This document shows, piece after piece, positions 8,855 through 20,319 of a DNA stretch of 22,538 nucleotides (its first letter is position 1; each line of letters opens with the position of its first letter). This stretch comes from a virus. The notes under the pieces are model-generated. The model was not told where the DNA came from, did not search any database, and worked only from the letters and a program-made list of their open reading frames with translations. The translations under genes were made by a program, and so were the position numbers. The DNA lies in IMG/VR virus record IMGVR_UViG_3300020466_000021, positions 1-22,538 of that record; one strand, written 5' to 3'.

Positions 8855-11095
8855 TTAATTATATTTTCTGTGTACTATCTTTGATATTGAATCAGAATTA
8901 TCATAAGTTTTAATTCCTAAATCTATTTTTTTAGTTGTTCTATTTGCTATAGGTTTATACTTGTTTCTATTACAAGCCATAATAGCTAAACCTGAACTAA
9001 TTGAAGCATCGTGCTTTGTTCTGTCATGAATATTAAATTTAGCCCAATCCTCCAGTGTTTCTTGGAAATACATTTCTCCACATATTCCATTATCATCATA
9101 TCCTACATAATTCTCTATATAAGATTCTATTGCTGCAGCATGAGCTTGTTTAATGTCTTCACTTGAATTTGGAATACCTCCTAATTCTCTCTCTGTAACC
9201 GACATTTTACTCCAAATTCTATCTGGTCTATTAATAGAAAAATTCCTATATCCTCTTTTTCGTAAATAGTATAATAATCTAGGTTTGTTATTTTCTGCTA
9301 ATATTGGCATTCCATAAAACACTAAAGCCATTAACACATCTTCAAAAAATATTTCTGCTGTTGGAGGTCTTGATATATATTGTAAGAAAAACTTGTTTAC
9401 TGGTCCATCTTCTAAATGAAACTTTGTTAATCCGTGTAATGATCCTTTAGATCCTCTTCCGTCAACAGTTCCACTTATATCGTAACTATCACAACCAAAA
9501 GCACCTATATGATCATTACCAGGGTACTTTAAATTATTTTTAACTAATACTTGATTTTGTAAATCTCTAGGCGGAACCCATGAGATTTTAAACCTACCAT
9601 TTTTATTAGGAACAAATATAACTTGAGTATCTTTAACACCGTCTAACCATTGGAAACTTCCTTGTGTTACTTGAGCACTGTTGTTAATATCTTCATTATA
9701 ATCTACTTGTTCGTATATTTTAATTAAATTAAATAAAGATTCTTTTGTTTCATCTCGAAACGCATGTTTTTCTGTTCGTGGAAATTGTCTATAATATTCA
9801 TTTAAAGCGTCTTGATCATTCTTTAATCCTTCAACTTCATTATCCCAATGTTCTATTACACCTATTTGAATATAATTACCATCTATGCCTTTTATAGGTG
9901 TTGAGGGAGTATCAAAAACAGGGTAACCATATTGATCAATAAACCCTTCATAGTTCCATTCCATTGGAATAAACAATGAATACAAACCTTCTTTAGTTTG
10001 ACCATTTCTATTTCTTTGTAAACAGTCAGATCCTGCGTAAATATCTTTAAAGTTTTGCCCTCCTTTATCTAAAGCATTAGAAGTGGAACCCATCATACAT
10101 TTACCTATAATTCTACTACCTAATCTTAAACAGGTTTTTGTTACTTTCCAATTGTTCTTAATATTGTCAGGTCTCTCCCACTTACCACTTTCATCGTGAG
10201 CTAATAGTTTTAATTTTTCACCATCATAACTATTGTCTCCAGTGTTTTTCCAATCGATAGTAGTATCTAATCCCTCTAATTCTCTAAGCTCTTCATTAAC
10301 CTCCAGCTTTCTACGTGTAAGTTTAGATGCCGGAACCCTGTATGCCAATTCGGTTTTAGGACGATCCATACCATCTTGGATTGGTTTGAAGAAAAACGGA
10401 TAGTTAACCGAGATTGGTACAACTTTATCTGTGAACATTTTTTTAGCATCTGCACCAGTCTTAGATAAAATCCCGTATCTACTGTCGGATGATATGGTTG
10501 CTTGATTAACCAGTTCAGCTGATGACATAAAAGAAAATCCTGATCGTCTGTTTTTAAGATAGCACATTCCATATGCCCTAGTGTCGGCTTTACAAGCTTC
10601 CCAAAAGATAAAGAATAATCTATTTGCTTCTCTATAGTCTGGTGCTCCAATGTCAATTTTTGACCATTGCAAGTACATGTAGTGAGTACCAGTAATGTAA
10701 GTAGGCAAACCGTTATTATAAAACCAAAACCCTTCATCTCTTCTTTTAAATTCTTCATCTATATAATCCCACCATTCTTCTCTAAAATCTTGTGGATATT
10801 TTTCCCAATCAAATCTACTTTTAATTTTTTTTAATTGCTTTGGATATTCAAATTGCTCCCAGTATTGTTTCTCTCTTTCTTCATTTCGTTTATACGGGTT
10901 GTCAACTGCTGGTAAAGCAATGCGGAGATTTTGTATTTCAATGATCTGTCCAATTTTCCCAGTTTTACTTATACAAATAAAATCATATTCAGGGTTATAT
11001 CCGTAATCCCATTTCTTTAAACGATTTTGTTTTTTTAGAATTTTAGGATTTACAACATCTTTAATTTCTTTCCATAGAGTTTGTTGATACTTCAT
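8855..11095 (-). CDS. terL: Terminase large subunit (746 aa)
   Basis: The ATP-driven DNA packaging motor with an N-terminal ATPase and C-terminal nuclease. A deviant Walker A-like loop lies at about 178-189 (CYLKNRRSGFSF), close to the KxRRxGFS form of crAss-like terminases. A Walker B is at 295-302 (LKLLAHDE, with D301-E302), and a coupling motif is near 335-340 (MMGSTSN). RNase H-like nuclease residues fit D536 (GAFGCDSYD), E601 (LAENNKP) and D696 (TKHDASIS). The first 120 residues are an extra, basic and aromatic N-terminal region. The start overlaps the preceding small gene by an ATGA, suggesting translational coupling, and portal follows within 3 bases. At 746 residues it is longer than many terminases but in keeping with crAss-like ones. 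Confidence in the family is high. Confidence 0.9.
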   Translation of the reverse strand: MKYQQTLWKEIKDVVNPKILKKQNRLKKWDYGYNPEYDFICISKTGKIGQIIEIQNLRIALPAVDNPYKRNEEREKQYWEQFEYPKQLKKIKSRFDWEKYPQDFREEWWDYIDEEFKRRDEGFWFYNNGLPTYITGTHYMYLQWSKIDIGAPDYREANRLFFIFWEACKADTRAYGMCYLKNRRSGFSFMSSAELVNQATISSDSRYGILSKTGADAKKMFTDKVVPISVNYPFFFKPIQDGMDRPKTELAYRVPASKLTRRKLEVNEELRELEGLDTTIDWKNTGDNSYDGEKLKLLAHDESGKWERPDNIKNNWKVTKTCLRLGSRIIGKCMMGSTSNALDKGGQNFKDIYAGSDCLQRNRNGQTKEGLYSLFIPMEWNYEGFIDQYGYPVFDTPSTPIKGIDGNYIQIGVIEHWDNEVEGLKNDQDALNEYYRQFPRTEKHAFRDETKESLFNLIKIYEQVDYNEDINNSAQVTQGSFQWLDGVKDTQVIFVPNKNGRFKISWVPPRDLQNQVLVKNNLKYPGNDHIGAFGCDSYDISGTVDGRGSKGSLHGLTKFHLEDGPVNKFFLQYISRPPTAEIFFEDVLMALVFYGMPILAENNKPRLLYYLRKRGYRNFSINRPDRIWSKMSVTERELGGIPNSSEDIKQAHAAAIESYIENYVGYDDNGICGEMYFQETLEDWAKFNIHDRTKHDASISSGLAIMACNRNKYKPIANRTTKKIDLGIKTYDNSDSISKIVHRKYN

Positions 11096-11379
11096 TTACT
11101 CCTCCCTTCTGGAAATCCTTTAAAACTTTTTTTAGGTTTTTCTTCTTTGGGTTTGTTGTTCAACAAATCTTCTTCTTCTTGAATTCTTTGAAGAATTTCA
11201 AAAGCATCAAATATAGCTAACTTCTTTGTTGCAGCTGCATTCTTTAGTCGGTCCGCAGACACATCCTCTCCCGTGTCCACAATTTCCTCCTTGGCAACTT
11301 TTATCAACTCTCTCACCGCCTCGTGCCCAGCTTGGATTATAAATCTCTTCGTTTCCTCTGTTTTCATGTTTAATAACAA
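11092..11379 (-). CDS. Small helical protein upstream of terL, candidate small terminase (95 aa)
   Basis: A 95-residue, mostly helical protein with a charged core (residues about 15-70, e.g. ADRLKNAAATKKLAIFDAF) and a basic Lys/Pro tail ending GFPEGRSK. It overlaps terL by 4 bases (ATGA), the classic place for a small terminase subunit, and would be translated in step with terL. No helix-turn-helix is obvious, so the small-terminase idea is only positional. An in-frame ATG four codons downstream (MKTEETKR) is an alternative start. The first 173 bases of this gene are also read in another frame by the preceding gene; the Lys/Glu-rich, helix-like composition of this frame looks the more natural of the two. 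Confidence 0.6.
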   Translation of the reverse strand: MLLNMKTEETKRFIIQAGHEAVRELIKVAKEEIVDTGEDVSADRLKNAAATKKLAIFDAFEILQRIQEEEDLLNNKPKEEKPKKSFKGFPEGRSK

Positions 11380-11890
11380 TATCTTTTGATTTCATACAAT
11401 ATAATAATTGATCATTTAAAATAAATTCAAATTCTCTATCAGGTTTAAAAGAAACTACATCTTCCTTGCTAATTCCTTTTTCATTTAACAACCTGTTGTC
11501 GTATTTTATTATTCCTTTTTGATCTTGATCTTTTAATGGAGCCACGAAACATCTATCTAAAAAACTTTTCCATTCATGTCCATTATGATATAAGTAAACT
11601 TGATCTATTCCGGCAAAGTACATTTCATCTTTAAAATATCCTCTACTATTTCTTTCTTTACCTTTTACGTCATACCATCTTCTAAATACATTATGATGAA
11701 GGCAAACTATATCTCCAGCTTTTATATCACTTTCTAAAATTAATGGAGTAGAAATTACTTTTCCTAATTTGCTTACAGATTTGAAGTTTTCAATATTAGC
11801 GTTTATTATAACTTCTACTTCACCTATTTTTTTAGTATTTTGATATCGTTCACTTAAAGGCGTTACTAGAAAATCATACGTACTATTCAC
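11207..11890 (-). CDS. Second Cpn10 (GroES)-like protein with overprinted Cys-rich tail (227 aa)
   Basis: A 227-residue protein with a likely GTG start overlapping the preceding stop by 8 bases; no in-frame ATG occurs until about residue 90. Residues about 144-176 (DVVSFKPDREFEFILND, then a Y-x4-KDIVI pattern) line up with the C-terminal half of the GroES encoded at 18192-18452 (DVIYFDRHSGFNLEIND, then Y-x4-KDVVI). An N-terminal strand (DFLVTPL) and KAGDIVCLHHNVF also fit the Cpn10 fold. Between them is a long insert with RRWYDVKGKERNSRGYFKD. The Cpn10 match ends near residue 176, while the frame runs on over the next gene as a Gly/Cys-rich tail with six Cys. It may cap the phage or host chaperonin with a modified chamber, as T4 gp31 does. 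That function is inference. Confidence 0.65.
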   Translation of the reverse strand: MNSTYDFLVTPLSERYQNTKKIGEVEVIINANIENFKSVSKLGKVISTPLILESDIKAGDIVCLHHNVFRRWYDVKGKERNSRGYFKDEMYFAGIDQVYLYHNGHEWKSFLDRCFVAPLKDQDQKGIIKYDNRLLNEKGISKEDVVSFKPDREFEFILNDQLLYCMKSKDIVIKHENRGNEEIYNPSWARGGERVDKSCQGGNCGHGRGCVCGPTKECSCNKEVSYI

Positions 11891-15350: not shown

Positions 15351-15620
15351 TTACGATCTTTTACCTCTATTATAACTTTTCTTTTCTAACCCAGGATATT
15401 TTTTCAATACACAAGCTCTAATTCCTTCTGGATTAGGTGCATTGTGTGCTAGTTTAAGAGCAGACTTAGCTCTTTTTCTAGTGTTTACAGGATAACTACC
15501 TTCTGGTGCTCCACCTGCTGGTCCACAGAAATCTCCTTTTTTTACATTAGGATAATCTCCAACATTAGACCCACCTGGTTTAGTTCTTGCTTTTCTTTCT
15601 TTTTCAGTTAATTCAGCCAT
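15351..15620 (-). CDS. Small phage protein with FCGPAGG...NPEGIRACV motif (89 aa)
   Basis: An 89-residue basic protein. Residues about 29-78 contain GDFCGPAGGAPEGSYPVNT, then a helical RAKSALKLAHNAPNPEG and RACVLKKYPGL. I know this layout from small domains in phage virion gene regions, where a C/F-GPAGGSFPV turn precedes a helical AL-x-A-x-APNPEGI segment. The structural or capsid-linked role is inferred. It has two Cys and a Lys/Arg-rich C-terminus. The start codon overlaps the upstream stop by a single base. Confidence 0.6.
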   Translation of the reverse strand: MAELTEKERKARTKPGGSNVGDYPNVKKGDFCGPAGGAPEGSYPVNTRKRAKSALKLAHNAPNPEGIRACVLKKYPGLEKKSYNRGKRS

Positions 15621-15892
15621 TATTTTTTCTTTTTATGTTTGTTACAAAAAGCTCTAGCTGCTCCTTTGCTACTAAAACCCCATTTTTTAAGAGCCATTGC
15701 TAAGTTACTTGGTTTACCATTTTTAGTCATACCACCTGACATACCTGCAAACCTACAAGCAAAAGAAACTCTTCTACTTCCTGTACCAGATGTTTGTCTT
15801 TTACCTAAAGTTTTACCAGTTTCTTTTTTATGTTTTGAACGCATTTTTTTATTGCGTCTTTCATATCGGGCGTTGTGACTAAGTTTACTCAT
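15620..15892 (-). CDS. Small, very basic protein with SFACRFAGM motif (90 aa)
   Basis: A 90-residue protein with about 27 Lys/Arg and only two acidic residues. The first 40 residues are an extended basic region (YERRNKKMRSKHKKETGKT). Residues 40-87 hold RRVSFACRFAGMSGGMTKNG and ALKKWGFSSKGAARAFCNKH, with two Cys at similar distances from the ends of this domain. I recognise the RVSFACRFAGM ... ALKKWGF pattern from small proteins of marine phages. The charge suggests a nucleic-acid partner, such as packaged DNA. The start overlaps the upstream stop as ATGA. The function is unknown. Confidence 0.6.
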   Translation of the reverse strand: MSKLSHNARYERRNKKMRSKHKKETGKTLGKRQTSGTGSRRVSFACRFAGMSGGMTKNGKPSNLAMALKKWGFSSKGAARAFCNKHKKKK

Positions 15893-16008
15893 TTCTTAAC
15901 ACAGTTATTAACTCTTTTAGGTTTACCACTTTTAGTACGTTTACCACTAGGAGAATTTTTAGTTCCTTTAGCAACATAACCAGGCCAACACTTCTTACGT
16001 TTTCTCAT
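15889..16008 (-). CDS. Tiny basic CWPGY peptide (39 aa)
   Basis: A 39-codon gene, MRKRKKCWPGYVAKGTKNSP onward, with 15 Lys/Arg and no acidic residue. Cys near both ends (KKCWPGY and NNCVKK) could pair. The CWPGY-x-x-xGTK ... KRVNNCV pattern recurs in very small phage proteins known to me from marine genomes. It overlaps its neighbours by 4 bases on each side (ATGA with the 90-residue gene; the upstream 78-residue gene ends at 16005), which strongly supports a real gene. It may be a DNA-associated or minor capsid peptide, which is inferred from charge. Confidence 0.6.
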   Translation of the reverse strand: MRKRKKCWPGYVAKGTKNSPSGKRTKSGKPKRVNNCVKK

Positions 16009-16241
16009 TTTGGTGAATGATTGTGCTTTAATATAGGATGACGATAATGTCTATCTCTCCTATGTTCAGCATCGTAATGTGCATCTTTTTTTAAGGCGTG
16101 TGCATGATCAATATCATCTCCAGCCCAATCTCCGTGACCGTGTTCCATATCCCATCTAGCGTCTGCACCTAGTTTTTTTTCATGAGAATAATCATCCATT
16201 GACGCTTCTTTATCCTCATATTTATTCATTCTTTTTGCCAT
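16005..16241 (-). CDS. His/Asp-rich small protein (78 aa)
   Basis: A 78-residue protein with 11 His, plus many Asp, Glu, Lys and Arg; segments include WDMEHGHGDWAGDDIDHAH and AEHRRDRHYRH. I place the start at the ATG at 16241 (MAKRMNKYED), four bases after the upstream stop; a longer reading from 16277 would overlap the upstream gene and begin with an unlikely hydrophobic stretch. The His/Asp density suggests metal binding. The upstream 98-residue protein is also His-rich and shares a DHGH/EHGH element. No family is recognised. Confidence 0.6.
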   Translation of the reverse strand: MAKRMNKYEDKEASMDDYSHEKKLGADARWDMEHGHGDWAGDDIDHAHALKKDAHYDAEHRRDRHYRHPILKHNHSPK

Positions 16242-16245
16242 GATA

Positions 16246-16542
16246 TTAAATAAAACGACCTTCAGCGTCAGGATCACCTAATCCTTCAATACCTCGATCA
16301 GTTACACTTAAACCACGACCACCCATATGTTTTAATACTTTACTCATAGCATGATGTCTATTACTTCCTCCATCATGTCTGTATGACATTCCTGCATCTG
16401 AACCATATTTGTGTCCATGATCTTTTTTCTCCATAGCTTCTGACTCATGTCTTCTATCAGCCATTGATTGTTTCTTGCTAGATTCTTTACCATCTTTATT
16501 CCCAAGAGTTTCGTCTAGTCTTGCGTTATATCCTTGTCCCAT
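16246..16542 (-). CDS. His-rich small phage protein with QSMADRRHES motif (98 aa)
   Basis: A 98-residue hydrophilic protein starting MGQGYNARLDETLGNKDGK and continuing SSKKQSMADRRHESEAMEKK. The NARLDE-LG ... KKQS-DRR-ES pattern is familiar from small proteins in marine phage virion clusters. It has seven His, including DHGHKYGSD and RHHAMSKVLKH, and a Gly-rich C-terminal half. The start follows an A/T leader (AAAAAATTAAATTATG). It may be a virion accessory protein. The function is unknown. Confidence 0.6.
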   Translation of the reverse strand: MGQGYNARLDETLGNKDGKESSKKQSMADRRHESEAMEKKDHGHKYGSDAGMSYRHDGGSNRHHAMSKVLKHMGGRGLSVTDRGIEGLGDPDAEGRFI

Positions 16543-16553
16543 AATTTAATTTT

Positions 16554-16751
16554 TTAAGGTGCTGGTTCTTCTACTTTTAGTTTAGCAACAAGTCCATCCA
16601 TTTCATATTCTACTGGTGCGTCAGGTCCAGCTACTGCTTCAGGGATAGCTCCTACTCTCTTAAATTCACCATCTTCCTTTTCTAATCCCATCATTTTTTC
16701 TACAGTGTCAAGATCTTTTTGATTACCTCTGATCCGAGCTCTGTTTTCCAT
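16554..16751 (-). CDS. Small acidic protein of unknown function (65 aa)
   Basis: A 65-residue protein, MENRARIRGNQKDLDTVEKM onward, with an acidic, Val/Pro/Ala-rich C-terminal half containing YEMDGLVAKLKVEEPAP. I prefer the ATG at 16751 because it follows an A/T-rich AACTTTAAATTTATAATG leader like its neighbours; an ATG seven codons upstream (16772) is possible. The EMDGLV element is echoed in the Lys/Pro-rich protein at 20347-20598. It lies directly after the endolysin gene. The function is unknown. Confidence 0.5.
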   Translation of the reverse strand: MENRARIRGNQKDLDTVEKMMGLEKEDGEFKRVGAIPEAVAGPDAPVEYEMDGLVAKLKVEEPAP

Positions 16752-16784
16752 TATAAATTTAAAGTTATACATGTGTTTGTAGTA

Positions 16785-17748: not shown

Positions 17749-18195
17749 TTATCTTGTTTTATCTTTGTTTACGTTAGTTATGGAAGTGGATAATACCTTG
17801 TCACTGTAACTAGTTCTTTTCATAATTGAATTAGACCTAGTTGTTTCAGGAATATCCTCTTCCCCTAACATTATCCGGTACATCCGAGAAATTAGTTGTT
17901 TACACTTGAAAGAAACTTTATATATATGATACTTCTGAGTGGTGCGGTTTCGTGCGCGCCATACCACTATCCATCCCTCCTTAAGTAATCTGTTCCAGCG
18001 TCTGTTGTCCCAACTATATGCGTGTGTACCGATTTTAAAATCTTGTTTCGTAAATAAATTAACTGCATCTAAATAAATCAACAACTCGAGATCTGCTTCT
18101 TTAAGATCACTTGTTTTCGCTGCCCATTTACGTATAATTCTATAATGTTTAAGTAAATTTAAATCTTTAAGATCAGATGAGGTTAATTTTCTCAT
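17749..18195 (-). CDS. Winged-helix (MarR-like) protein coupled to groES (148 aa)
   Basis: A 148-residue basic protein with a winged-helix layout. A helix (LKEADLELLIYLDAV), a Phe-rich turn, a putative recognition helix (DNRRWNRLLKEGWI) and a beta-hairpin wing (VVWRARNRTTQKYHIYKVS) are followed by a C-terminal helix (KCKQLISRMYRIML) and a polar tail. This arrangement fits MarR-type DNA-binding proteins. Its start overlaps the groES stop as ATGA, so it is translated with the chaperonins. It may regulate late transcription or bind virion DNA; I recall similar proteins in marine phage virion regions. The DNA-binding call is moderately supported and its target is unknown. Confidence 0.65.
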   Translation of the reverse strand: MRKLTSSDLKDLNLLKHYRIIRKWAAKTSDLKEADLELLIYLDAVNLFTKQDFKIGTHAYSWDNRRWNRLLKEGWIVVWRARNRTTQKYHIYKVSFKCKQLISRMYRIMLGEEDIPETTRSNSIMKRTSYSDKVLSTSITNVNKDKTR

Positions 18196-18452
18196 AATAC
18201 TATAACTACATCTTTCTCTTGTATAACTATATATGTTATGTCGTTTATTTCTAAATTAAAACCAGAATGTCTATCAAAATATATAACATCTCCACTTTTA
18301 ACTACTTTTACTTCATCTCCGGATTGTTCAACTGTAGCTTTATGGTATCTAATATCTTCTCTTTGTTTTTCTCCTAACAGTAAACCAGATATATTTTCTT
18401 TTACCTTTTCTTCTTCTAATTCTACAATTATGTTTTTACCAACTACTTTCAT
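18192..18452 (-). CDS. groES: Co-chaperonin GroES (Cpn10), 86 aa
   Basis: A Cpn10 that would form the heptameric lid of the phage chaperonin. The N-terminal strand (KNIIVELEEE) leads into a mobile loop, residues about 15-32, with the hydrophobic tripeptide in SGLLLGEKQ that docks into GroEL apical domains. The body has SGDVIYFDRHSGF and the C-terminal IQEKDVVIVL matches the SESDILAIV end of bacterial GroES. The length is slightly below the bacterial 95-97 residues. It lies downstream of groEL, and both its ends form ATGA overlaps (with groEL and with the winged-helix gene). The residue pattern leaves little doubt about the family; the cognate partner is inferred from the linkage. Confidence 0.9.
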   Translation of the reverse strand: MKVVGKNIIVELEEEKVKENISGLLLGEKQREDIRYHKATVEQSGDEVKVVKSGDVIYFDRHSGFNLEINDITYIVIQEKDVVIVL

Positions 18453-20005
18453 GCTCTTAAATTATTAATTACACAATCAGTAGATAATATAGTAGTAGCT
18501 ACGGAAGCCGCGTTTTTTAAAGCGCTTTTAGTAACAAGTAAAGGATCTATTATTCCGGACTTTACCATACTTACTTTTTTACCTGTAACCACATCCAATC
18601 CTTCTCCTTCGTTCATCTCTGCTGGAATTGCTTTAATCCCCGCATTATCTAATATAACGTTAAAAGGAGCACGTATAGCTTTTAGTAATACCTCTTCACC
18701 TGGAGAAACTGGTCCAACCATTAGTTTTTCAGAAGCATTTATTAAAGCAATACCACCACCTGGTACTATTCCTTCTTTAATCGCGGCTTTTGTAGCACAT
18801 ATAGCATCTTCTACTCTATCTTTTTTTTCTTTTAATTCTACCTCAGAATTTGCCCCTACTTTTACTACAGCCACTTTAGCTAGTAATTGACTTAATCGTT
18901 TTTCGTATCTACTTCTAAGGTTTTCATTAGTAGTTTTATCTAAAAGCTTTTGAACTTTATCTGCTCTATTTATAACACCTTCTGGTAATTCTTCAACTTT
19001 TATTAATGTGTTATGAGCCGTACTAGTTGCTTGTAAACAAGATCCAAAGTGTTCAGGTTGTATTAAATCTATATCATCACCTAAATCTTCATTTATAACA
19101 GTAGCACCTGTCATTAAAGCTAGATCTTCTAATACATCTGTTCTACTTAATCCGTGAATAGGAGCGTCAATTAAATTAACTTTTAATCTTCCTTTCATAT
19201 TGTTCATGGCTAAAGCTTGTTTTACCACCATGTCAACATCGCCTATTATTAATAAAGGAGATTCATTTTTGTTAGTCTTAATAACATATTCTAATACACG
19301 TTCTAATCTTCGCATATTATCTATTTTATTACCTATTATTAAAACCAATGGATTGTTTAGTTCACAAATACCTTTTTCTTTGTCTGTGGTGAAGTATGGA
19401 GAACTATATCCTTTATTATATTCAAAACCATCTATAATTTCTACTTCTGTAAATGGTTGTTCATTTGTATCCATAGTAACGATACCGGTCTTATCTATAG
19501 CTATAAAAGCTTCACTAATTATTTTGCCAACAGTACTATCATTATTAGCTGATATAGTAGCAACCTGTTCTATTTTATTATTGGTTACTTTTTTAGTAGT
19601 TTTCTCTAAATACTTAACTACTTTGTTTACTGCTGTATTAATACCTTCTTTTACTTCTCTAATATTTGATGGTGTTAGTACTTTATATGCTTCTTCTAAT
19701 ATAGCATGTGAAAGTACTGTTGCTGTTGTAGTTCCGTCACCCGCTTCTTTAACGGTTTTTCTTGCAGCTTCTTTAATTAATTTAGCACCTATGTTTTCTA
19801 CAGGATCTAAAAGTATAATGCTATTTGCTACACTAACTCCATCTTTAGTAATATGAGGATTTCCATTATTGTCCTCTAGTATTACACACTTGCCGCTAGC
19901 TCCTAATGTAGAGCCAACGGCTTGTGTTAGCTTTTGAATTCCTTCAAATATTTTATTTTTAGCATCCTCTCCAAAGTTGAGGTGCTTTACTATTGTCTCG
20001 TTCAT
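18449..20005 (-). CDS. groEL: Chaperonin GroEL (Cpn60), 518 aa
   Basis: A group I chaperonin that would form an ATP-driven folding chamber, probably for phage capsid or fibre proteins. It keeps the ATP-binding GDGTTTAT (89-96, D90), D55 in ITKDGVSVA and catalytic D400 in RVEDAICATKAA, equal to E. coli D87, D52 and D398, plus the PGGG turn (415-418). The apical face keeps Y200, Y204 and F205 (GYSSPYF) for substrate and GroES binding. Departures: the usual TLGPKG loop reads TLGASG (33-38), and the flexible Gly-Met tail is missing, the protein ending TDCVINNLRA. The order groEL-groES is inverted relative to bacteria. The start has an A/T leader and no Shine-Dalgarno sequence. It appears intact and functional. 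Confidence 0.95.
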   Translation of the reverse strand: MNETIVKHLNFGEDAKNKIFEGIQKLTQAVGSTLGASGKCVILEDNNGNPHITKDGVSVANSIILLDPVENIGAKLIKEAARKTVKEAGDGTTTATVLSHAILEEAYKVLTPSNIREVKEGINTAVNKVVKYLEKTTKKVTNNKIEQVATISANNDSTVGKIISEAFIAIDKTGIVTMDTNEQPFTEVEIIDGFEYNKGYSSPYFTTDKEKGICELNNPLVLIIGNKIDNMRRLERVLEYVIKTNKNESPLLIIGDVDMVVKQALAMNNMKGRLKVNLIDAPIHGLSRTDVLEDLALMTGATVINEDLGDDIDLIQPEHFGSCLQATSTAHNTLIKVEELPEGVINRADKVQKLLDKTTNENLRSRYEKRLSQLLAKVAVVKVGANSEVELKEKKDRVEDAICATKAAIKEGIVPGGGIALINASEKLMVGPVSPGEEVLLKAIRAPFNVILDNAGIKAIPAEMNEGEGLDVVTGKKVSMVKSGIIDPLLVTKSALKNAASVATTILSTDCVINNLRA

Positions 20006-20031: not shown

Positions 20032-20319
20032 TTATTTAAATGTTTTAACTACTTTAGGTCCATTGCTAAACTCTAACTTTTTTGTATAATGTTCCACTGA
20101 TCCATCTATAGCAGCTTCTGCACCTTCTATAGTTTCTCTTCTTGTAACATCCACCCAAAAATCTTCATCAGGATGTTTATATTCGGTTTGATAAAATCCA
20201 TTTGGTAGTTGAACTATTCTCCAATTTCCCTTTTGAGATACATGTTCCCAATAAGCAATGGTTTTTTCATCTGGTTGTGGTGTACTACTCCACGTTTGAG
20301 TACGGTATAAAAACGTCAT
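20032..20319 (-). CDS. Small conserved marine-phage protein (95 aa)
   Basis: A 95-residue soluble protein with many Trp, Tyr and Phe. A beta-rich middle (GNWRIVQLPNGFYQTEYKHP, then DEDFWVDVTRRETIEGAE) is followed by a helix (AAIDGSVEHYTKKLEF) and a NGPKVVKTF end. I recognise the WRI-QLPNG-YQTEY ... VDVTRRETIEGAEAAID pattern from small proteins near virion genes in marine phages, where no function is known. It precedes groEL by 26 bases. Confidence 0.65.
   Translation of the reverse strand: MTFLYRTQTWSSTPQPDEKTIAYWEHVSQKGNWRIVQLPNGFYQTEYKHPDEDFWVDVTRRETIEGAEAAIDGSVEHYTKKLEFSNGPKVVKTFK

Follow-up and report, generated by a model that had tools for sequence, protein, structure and literature searches.

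Group I chaperonins are encoded by phages in several described systems, of which two groups infecting flavobacteria offer the closest comparisons for the locus analyzed here. In the Flavobacterium phages vB_FspP_elemo (Elemovirus), groEL is followed by groES with touching reading frames, the next gene is a homologue of the winged-helix gene of our locus, and a tandem co-chaperonin gene lies upstream of terL. The elemo GroEL is, however, 41% identical to ours, and the elemo groE genes are on the strand opposite to that of the late genes and the winged-helix gene. The Cellulophaga phages phi38:1 and Calle (Pervagoviridae) carry a sister GroEL lineage, a tandem co-chaperonin by terL and a winged-helix homologue, but their arrangement is Cpn10-hypothetical-GroEL in the replication region, and the winged-helix gene is far away. 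For the marine 'group 2' Flavobacteriaceae phages, which contain phi38:1 and are related to Cellulophaga phages, 36 genomes with GroEL homologues have been reported (Nishimura 2017; PMC5332604); the GroEL of phi38:1 has been detected as a protein during infection (PMC13288928), and the Panino paper reports both GroEL and GroES.

Comparisons can also be drawn outside these phages. The bacterial groESL system, including E. coli GroES-GroEL, likewise consists of a group I Cpn60 and a Cpn10 with conserved ATPase residues, but bacteria place groES first, their GroEL ends in a GGM tail, and the loop at 461-464 and the apical residues differ (reference Salmonella). T4 gp31 is a phage-encoded GroES-like lid that works with the host GroEL and is a structural match to the tandem protein of our locus (Z 6.1-6.5), whereas the phage described here encodes its own GroEL as well. 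Chloroplast Cpn20 (Chlamydomonas, 7ekq) has two tandem GroES domains, as does our tandem protein, but identity is 14-15%, the mobile-loop region of domain 2 is much shortened in the phage protein, and the phage gene belongs to a packaging operon.

The window analyzed is the whole of a 22,538-base virus contig (IMG/VR IMGVR_UViG_3300020466_000021). Almost all of its genes lie on the minus strand, as do all features located below. In the order of transcription, a fibre-like protein (22538-20604) is followed by two small ORFs, GroEL, GroES, a 148-amino-acid protein, small genes and an amidase (17198-16785), and beyond the amidase by further late genes, a 227-amino-acid protein, the large terminase subunit TerL (11095..8855; phrog_6681, E 2e-171), the portal (8851-6404) and capsid-type proteins. 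Flanked in this way on one strand, the cassette region is phage late sequence. It belongs to tailed phages of roughly 60-70 kb that are kin to phi38:1 and elemo, and the host of the lineage is probably in the Flavobacteriia.

Some smaller features of the window deserve mention. The small ORF immediately upstream of groEL (20032..20319) has homologues in 109 of the loci surveyed, and a cluster of tiny late ORFs at 15351-16772 has products that are basic or rich in His and Lys. A small helical ORF at 11379..11092 lies directly upstream of terL, between it and the gene for the 227-amino-acid protein, with a long overlap; it is a candidate small terminase or, alternatively, a piece of TerL, the elemo TerL being about 130 amino acids longer. 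A dedicated promoter for the cassette was considered and rejected as far as a single Bacteroidetes-type consensus can tell, a scan that other promoter types would escape: no TTTG/TANNTTTG site was found near groEL or anywhere else along the minus strand.

GroEL (518 amino acids; 20005..18449) is a full-length Cpn60 of the group I type. It matches Pfam PF00118 (Cpn60_TCP1) over residues 26-514 (E 4.5e-57; 194 bits against a cut-off of 34.3), phrog_5725 (E 1e-136) and GroEL entries of the PDB (down to E 1.5e-110). In the residue map derived from the alignment, the ATP-site residues T30, G32, K51, D52, D87-T91, D398 and D495 are all kept, and the ATP/Mg residues (D52, D87, GDGTTT, D398, D495) are found in 116-117 of 117 clade members; because the catalytic residues are conserved, the protein should be an active ATPase. 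GroES (86 amino acids; 18452..18192) contains a Cpn10 domain above the Pfam cut-off (PF00166; E 3.8e-8; 33.7 bits against 21.1) and matches Cpn10 and Cpn20 entries of the PDB. The family alignment gives it a hydrophobic mobile-loop motif, SGLLL, which is GGL(I/L)L in most relatives, and reveals the absence of most of the roof region. The stop of groEL and the start of groES share an ATGA (18449..18452), and a second ATGA (18192..18195) joins groES to the gene for the 148-amino-acid protein (18195..17749), the overlap being 4 nt in each case as read from the sequence. The original prediction had placed a Cpn60/Cpn10 pair among late virion genes, with ATGA overlaps at both junctions, and it is upheld on each of these points, coordinates included. 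An apparently conserved ESNR tail at the C-terminus of GroEL in relatives was discarded as a protein feature, as it corresponds to the start of groES (MKAIGK) in another frame, within an overlap of 17-20 nt.

Further properties of the pair were read from a multiple sequence alignment with Salmonella as the enterobacterial reference. The apical domain carries the changes L234E, L259K, V263A and V264M, the inter-ring loop at 461-464 is shortened (positions 463-464 are gapped in 111-115 of 117 clade members), and the GGM tail is missing. The altered apical residues are among those that enterobacterial GroEL uses to hold substrates and GroES, which suggests tuning to phage substrates, and the shortened loop perhaps weakens the ring-ring interface. 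Chaperonins of other phages have been reported to have a labile interface of this kind (PMC7185714, PMC5934643). We infer that GroEL and GroES are a phage-specific pair tuned to each other, possibly with such an interface.

To place the cassette among its relatives, IMG/VR was searched with GroEL and the third protein and phage records were added, for a total of 134 distinct sequences. All 125 distinct IMG/VR contigs holding the three genes have them in the order groEL-groES-winged helix on one strand, which is the co-occurrence that a survey of marine viral genomes had been proposed to look for. Of 128 distinct relatives, 125 have groEL and groES frames that overlap, by 1-44 nt, and groES overlaps the winged-helix gene by 4 nt in 93 of the 125 contigs; 0.25-2.2 kb of extra sequence separates the latter two genes in 28. 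Because these loci had been picked for the cassette genes themselves, the survey was repeated with TerL as the seed. All 15 window-type contigs that held the genes had them in the same order and on the same strand, shared with TerL, and 10 of 10 elemo-type contigs, many of them near copies of each other, have groEL-groES and then the winged-helix gene in the opposite orientation. For longer contigs in which the cassette was beyond the surveyed range, searching the whole record again found GroEL and the winged-helix gene as neighbours, also where TerL is only 51-60% identical to that of elemo. The recurrence of the arrangement in both surveys argues that it is not due to chance. In all the long viral contigs and phage records tested (13/13 and 5/5), GroEL, the winged-helix protein and the tandem co-chaperonin are encoded once each. 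Stop codons interrupt both groEL and the tandem co-chaperonin gene in one long contig (GroEL at record positions 42151-43597); with both genes affected, sequencing error is likely.

The order groEL-groES is also found in the elemo phages, MW202828 and Panino. Among 80 bacterial loci examined, groES precedes groEL in 77 and no groES is seen in the flank of the other three, so that none has groEL first, and a further five phages that encode the pair (immuto, DAC16, MT835992, MW202566 and phi38:1) likewise have groES first. The inversion relative to bacteria, pointed out in the original prediction, is thereby confirmed, and in the sample examined it is specific to one phage lineage.

The 227-amino-acid protein (11890..11207), which the original prediction did not include, is a second co-chaperonin. 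It matches phrog_13932, 'co-chaperonin GroES' (E 1.2e-19), and its AF2 model (pLDDT 78.8) has two GroES folds in one chain, as in a Cpn20-type co-chaperonin. The top Foldseek matches of the model are co-chaperonin chains of Chlamydomonas (7ekq_R/Q); VIA aligned it to 7ekq_R (Cpn20) with Z 10.6 and rmsd 3.2 (151 residues aligned over 1-176), and each half also matches a single GroES (Z 7.8 and 8.3). A PDB sequence search with the alignment of this family gave only a chance acyltransferase match, and homology to GroES is concluded from the structural matches together with a sequence profile that also reaches flavobacterial GroES genes. The loop region of domain 1 (residues 11-40) is modeled with lower pLDDT, and the loop of domain 2 is about 6 residues in the window protein and longer in most relatives. 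The window protein also has a Cys-rich C-terminal tail, which overlaps the next ORF. Every one of the 104 contigs that contain the tandem gene together with terL has the tandem gene upstream and in the same orientation, within 400 bases in 100 of them, and the protein occurs in 77 phage records, namely those of elemo, Cellulophaga phages, MW202828 and Panino; GenBank labels some of the homologues GroES or cpn10.

The reading that we favor, with a probability of roughly 0.7, is that the phage GroEL/GroES folds virion proteins, the winged-helix protein is a late regulator and the tandem protein is an extra lid. Its starting point is a group I GroEL that is intact, keeps the ATPase residues and is encoded together with a dedicated GroES in overlapping frames on the late-gene strand. 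Translation coupled through the overlap would make GroEL and GroES together, and the GroEL ring would bind newly made phage structural proteins and fold them under the phage-made lid. Such a cage would make virion assembly independent of the host GroES-GroEL. The winged-helix protein would regulate late transcription, outside the chaperonin itself, and the tandem co-chaperonin beside terL could act as a second, alternative or mixed lid. T4 gp31 is a precedent, as a phage-made lid that favors phage proteins and takes over the role of GroES (PMC6318259). The phage EL chaperonin showed no interaction with E. coli GroES, nor did it refold an encapsulation-dependent substrate (PMC7185714), and therefore the presence of a chaperonin is no proof of a closed-cage mechanism.

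It may be asked whether the clients are virion proteins at all, as the chaperonin could serve mainly infected-cell or replication proteins. Such a role would suit phi38:1 and Calle_3, where groES and groEL sit in the replication region, as well as elemo, where groE runs opposite to the late genes. In the window clade, however, groE is inside the late virion block and on its strand, and we regard this alternative as unlikely.

With respect to the extra lid, one plant Cpn10 has to form hetero-oligomers with Cpn20 in order to function (PMC4242682), and a mixed lid in these phages is therefore a testable idea rather than a result. One fully specified scheme, drawn by analogy with chloroplasts, has two lids for one GroEL, namely the co-translated single GroES and a tandem protein made with the packaging genes. 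These would combine into a mixed seven-domain lid (for example three tandem proteins with one single-domain GroES, or two with three), the cage would be specialised for folding capsid or portal proteins, and the winged-helix protein would control the late operon. That all of these details hold is doubtful.

The third gene of the cassette had been assigned to a winged-helix protein, and the AlphaFold2 model of the product (pLDDT 88.8) agrees: it is helical and contains a winged helix in an apparently MarR-like arrangement. The protein matches phrog_17028, of unknown function (E 3e-11), and the window sequence matches no Pfam family. In VIA-align the best match of the model has Z 8.2 and rmsd 5.4 over 90 aligned residues; the listed matches are of the MarR type, with Z near background. 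No MarR model appeared among the Pfam matches of 43 family members (E 0.1), and a PDB search with the family alignment returned only a chance match to PtuA. Among viral structure models there is one clear match, to an unnamed viral protein of 86 amino acids, from which no function can be gained. Conservation within the family is among the highest in the DNA-facing recognition helix and the wing, and lowest in the C-terminal tail. No homologue was found in 397 Flavobacteriaceae genomes, a set without a positive control.

The original prediction held that the three genes could define a fixed folding module, in which case the winged-helix protein would be a chaperonin partner, for example an adaptor or an autoregulator of groE. 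The conserved adjacency is real: it persists across relatives whose GroEL identity falls to 35-40%, and the ATGA overlap with groES is kept in most of the marine contigs (93/125). The arrangement is not fixed, however. The winged-helix gene is opposite in strand to groEL-groES in elemo-type phages, MW202828 and Panino, it is set apart from groES by extra sequence in the 28 contigs mentioned above, and in phi38:1, which keeps both, it is unlinked to groEL. Moreover, the fold looks DNA-binding. In the lineages tested, it is groE that changes orientation in elemo-type phages, the winged-helix gene staying on the late-gene (TerL) strand, and a late-gene regulator with groE beside it therefore fits better than a chaperonin partner, a role that we consider decidedly unlikely. 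Fold and position point instead to a putative MarR-like DNA-binding regulator of late transcription, whose gene would be a conserved neighbour genetically linked to groE and not a chaperonin component. Another conceivable identity, the terminase small subunit without a regulatory role, would suit a small HTH-type protein that was found only in phages in this analysis, that is present in every long relative tested and whose gene is on the TerL strand. It is very unlikely, however, given that the gene is about 6.6 kb from terL, that a different small ORF (11379..11092) occupies the position directly upstream of terL, and that the listed fold matches are MarR-type.

The origin of the phage GroEL was addressed with a maximum-likelihood tree; a phylogeny had been proposed in the original prediction, which argued against a simple recent capture from a host. 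Phages with the inverted order group in a single clade (99/93) outside all sampled bacteria, with phi38:1/Calle as sister (100/93). Long branches limit the tree, but the window clade persists when the long-branch phages are removed (100/100). Bacteroides phage DAC16 and the Vibrio phages nest among host groups, and the tree is therefore able to detect recent capture. That a host groESL operon was captured recently and then rearranged is exceedingly improbable. The GroEL is of the bacterial group I type, and with the long branches left out the AU test does not reject placing the clade on the stem beside Bacteroidota (p 0.37) or Flavobacteriia (p 0.15). However, the closest bacterial GroELs among the matches listed, a set of about 594 stretches of genomes that each represent a bacterial species, are just 38-42% identical, the clade has a long stem and unites our phage with other phages, the gene order differs, and true recent cases look like DAC16 and the Vibrio phages. 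The phage GroEL lineage is instead old or fast-evolving, and on the GroEL tree the inverted order arose once.

A viral GroEL-GroES pair in this phage group was already known. The inverted order probably was as well, since Marine et al. 2017 (ISME J) reportedly found that in virioplankton the relative position of the two subunit genes follows the phylogeny of GroEL. The apparently new elements are the linkage of the winged-helix gene to groE and the tandem second co-chaperonin beside terL, for whose double-domain nature no description was found in the literature searched.

Finally, we note that the ocean abounds in viral chaperonins and that few of their clients and lids have been tested. The cultured members elemo, phi38:1 and Panino carry GroEL, a single-domain GroES and the tandem co-chaperonin, and therefore offer a testable system for a phage-built folding cage and for asking if lids of the tandem type also evolved outside plastids. 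The inverted gene order, with its single origin, is in addition usable as a lineage marker.
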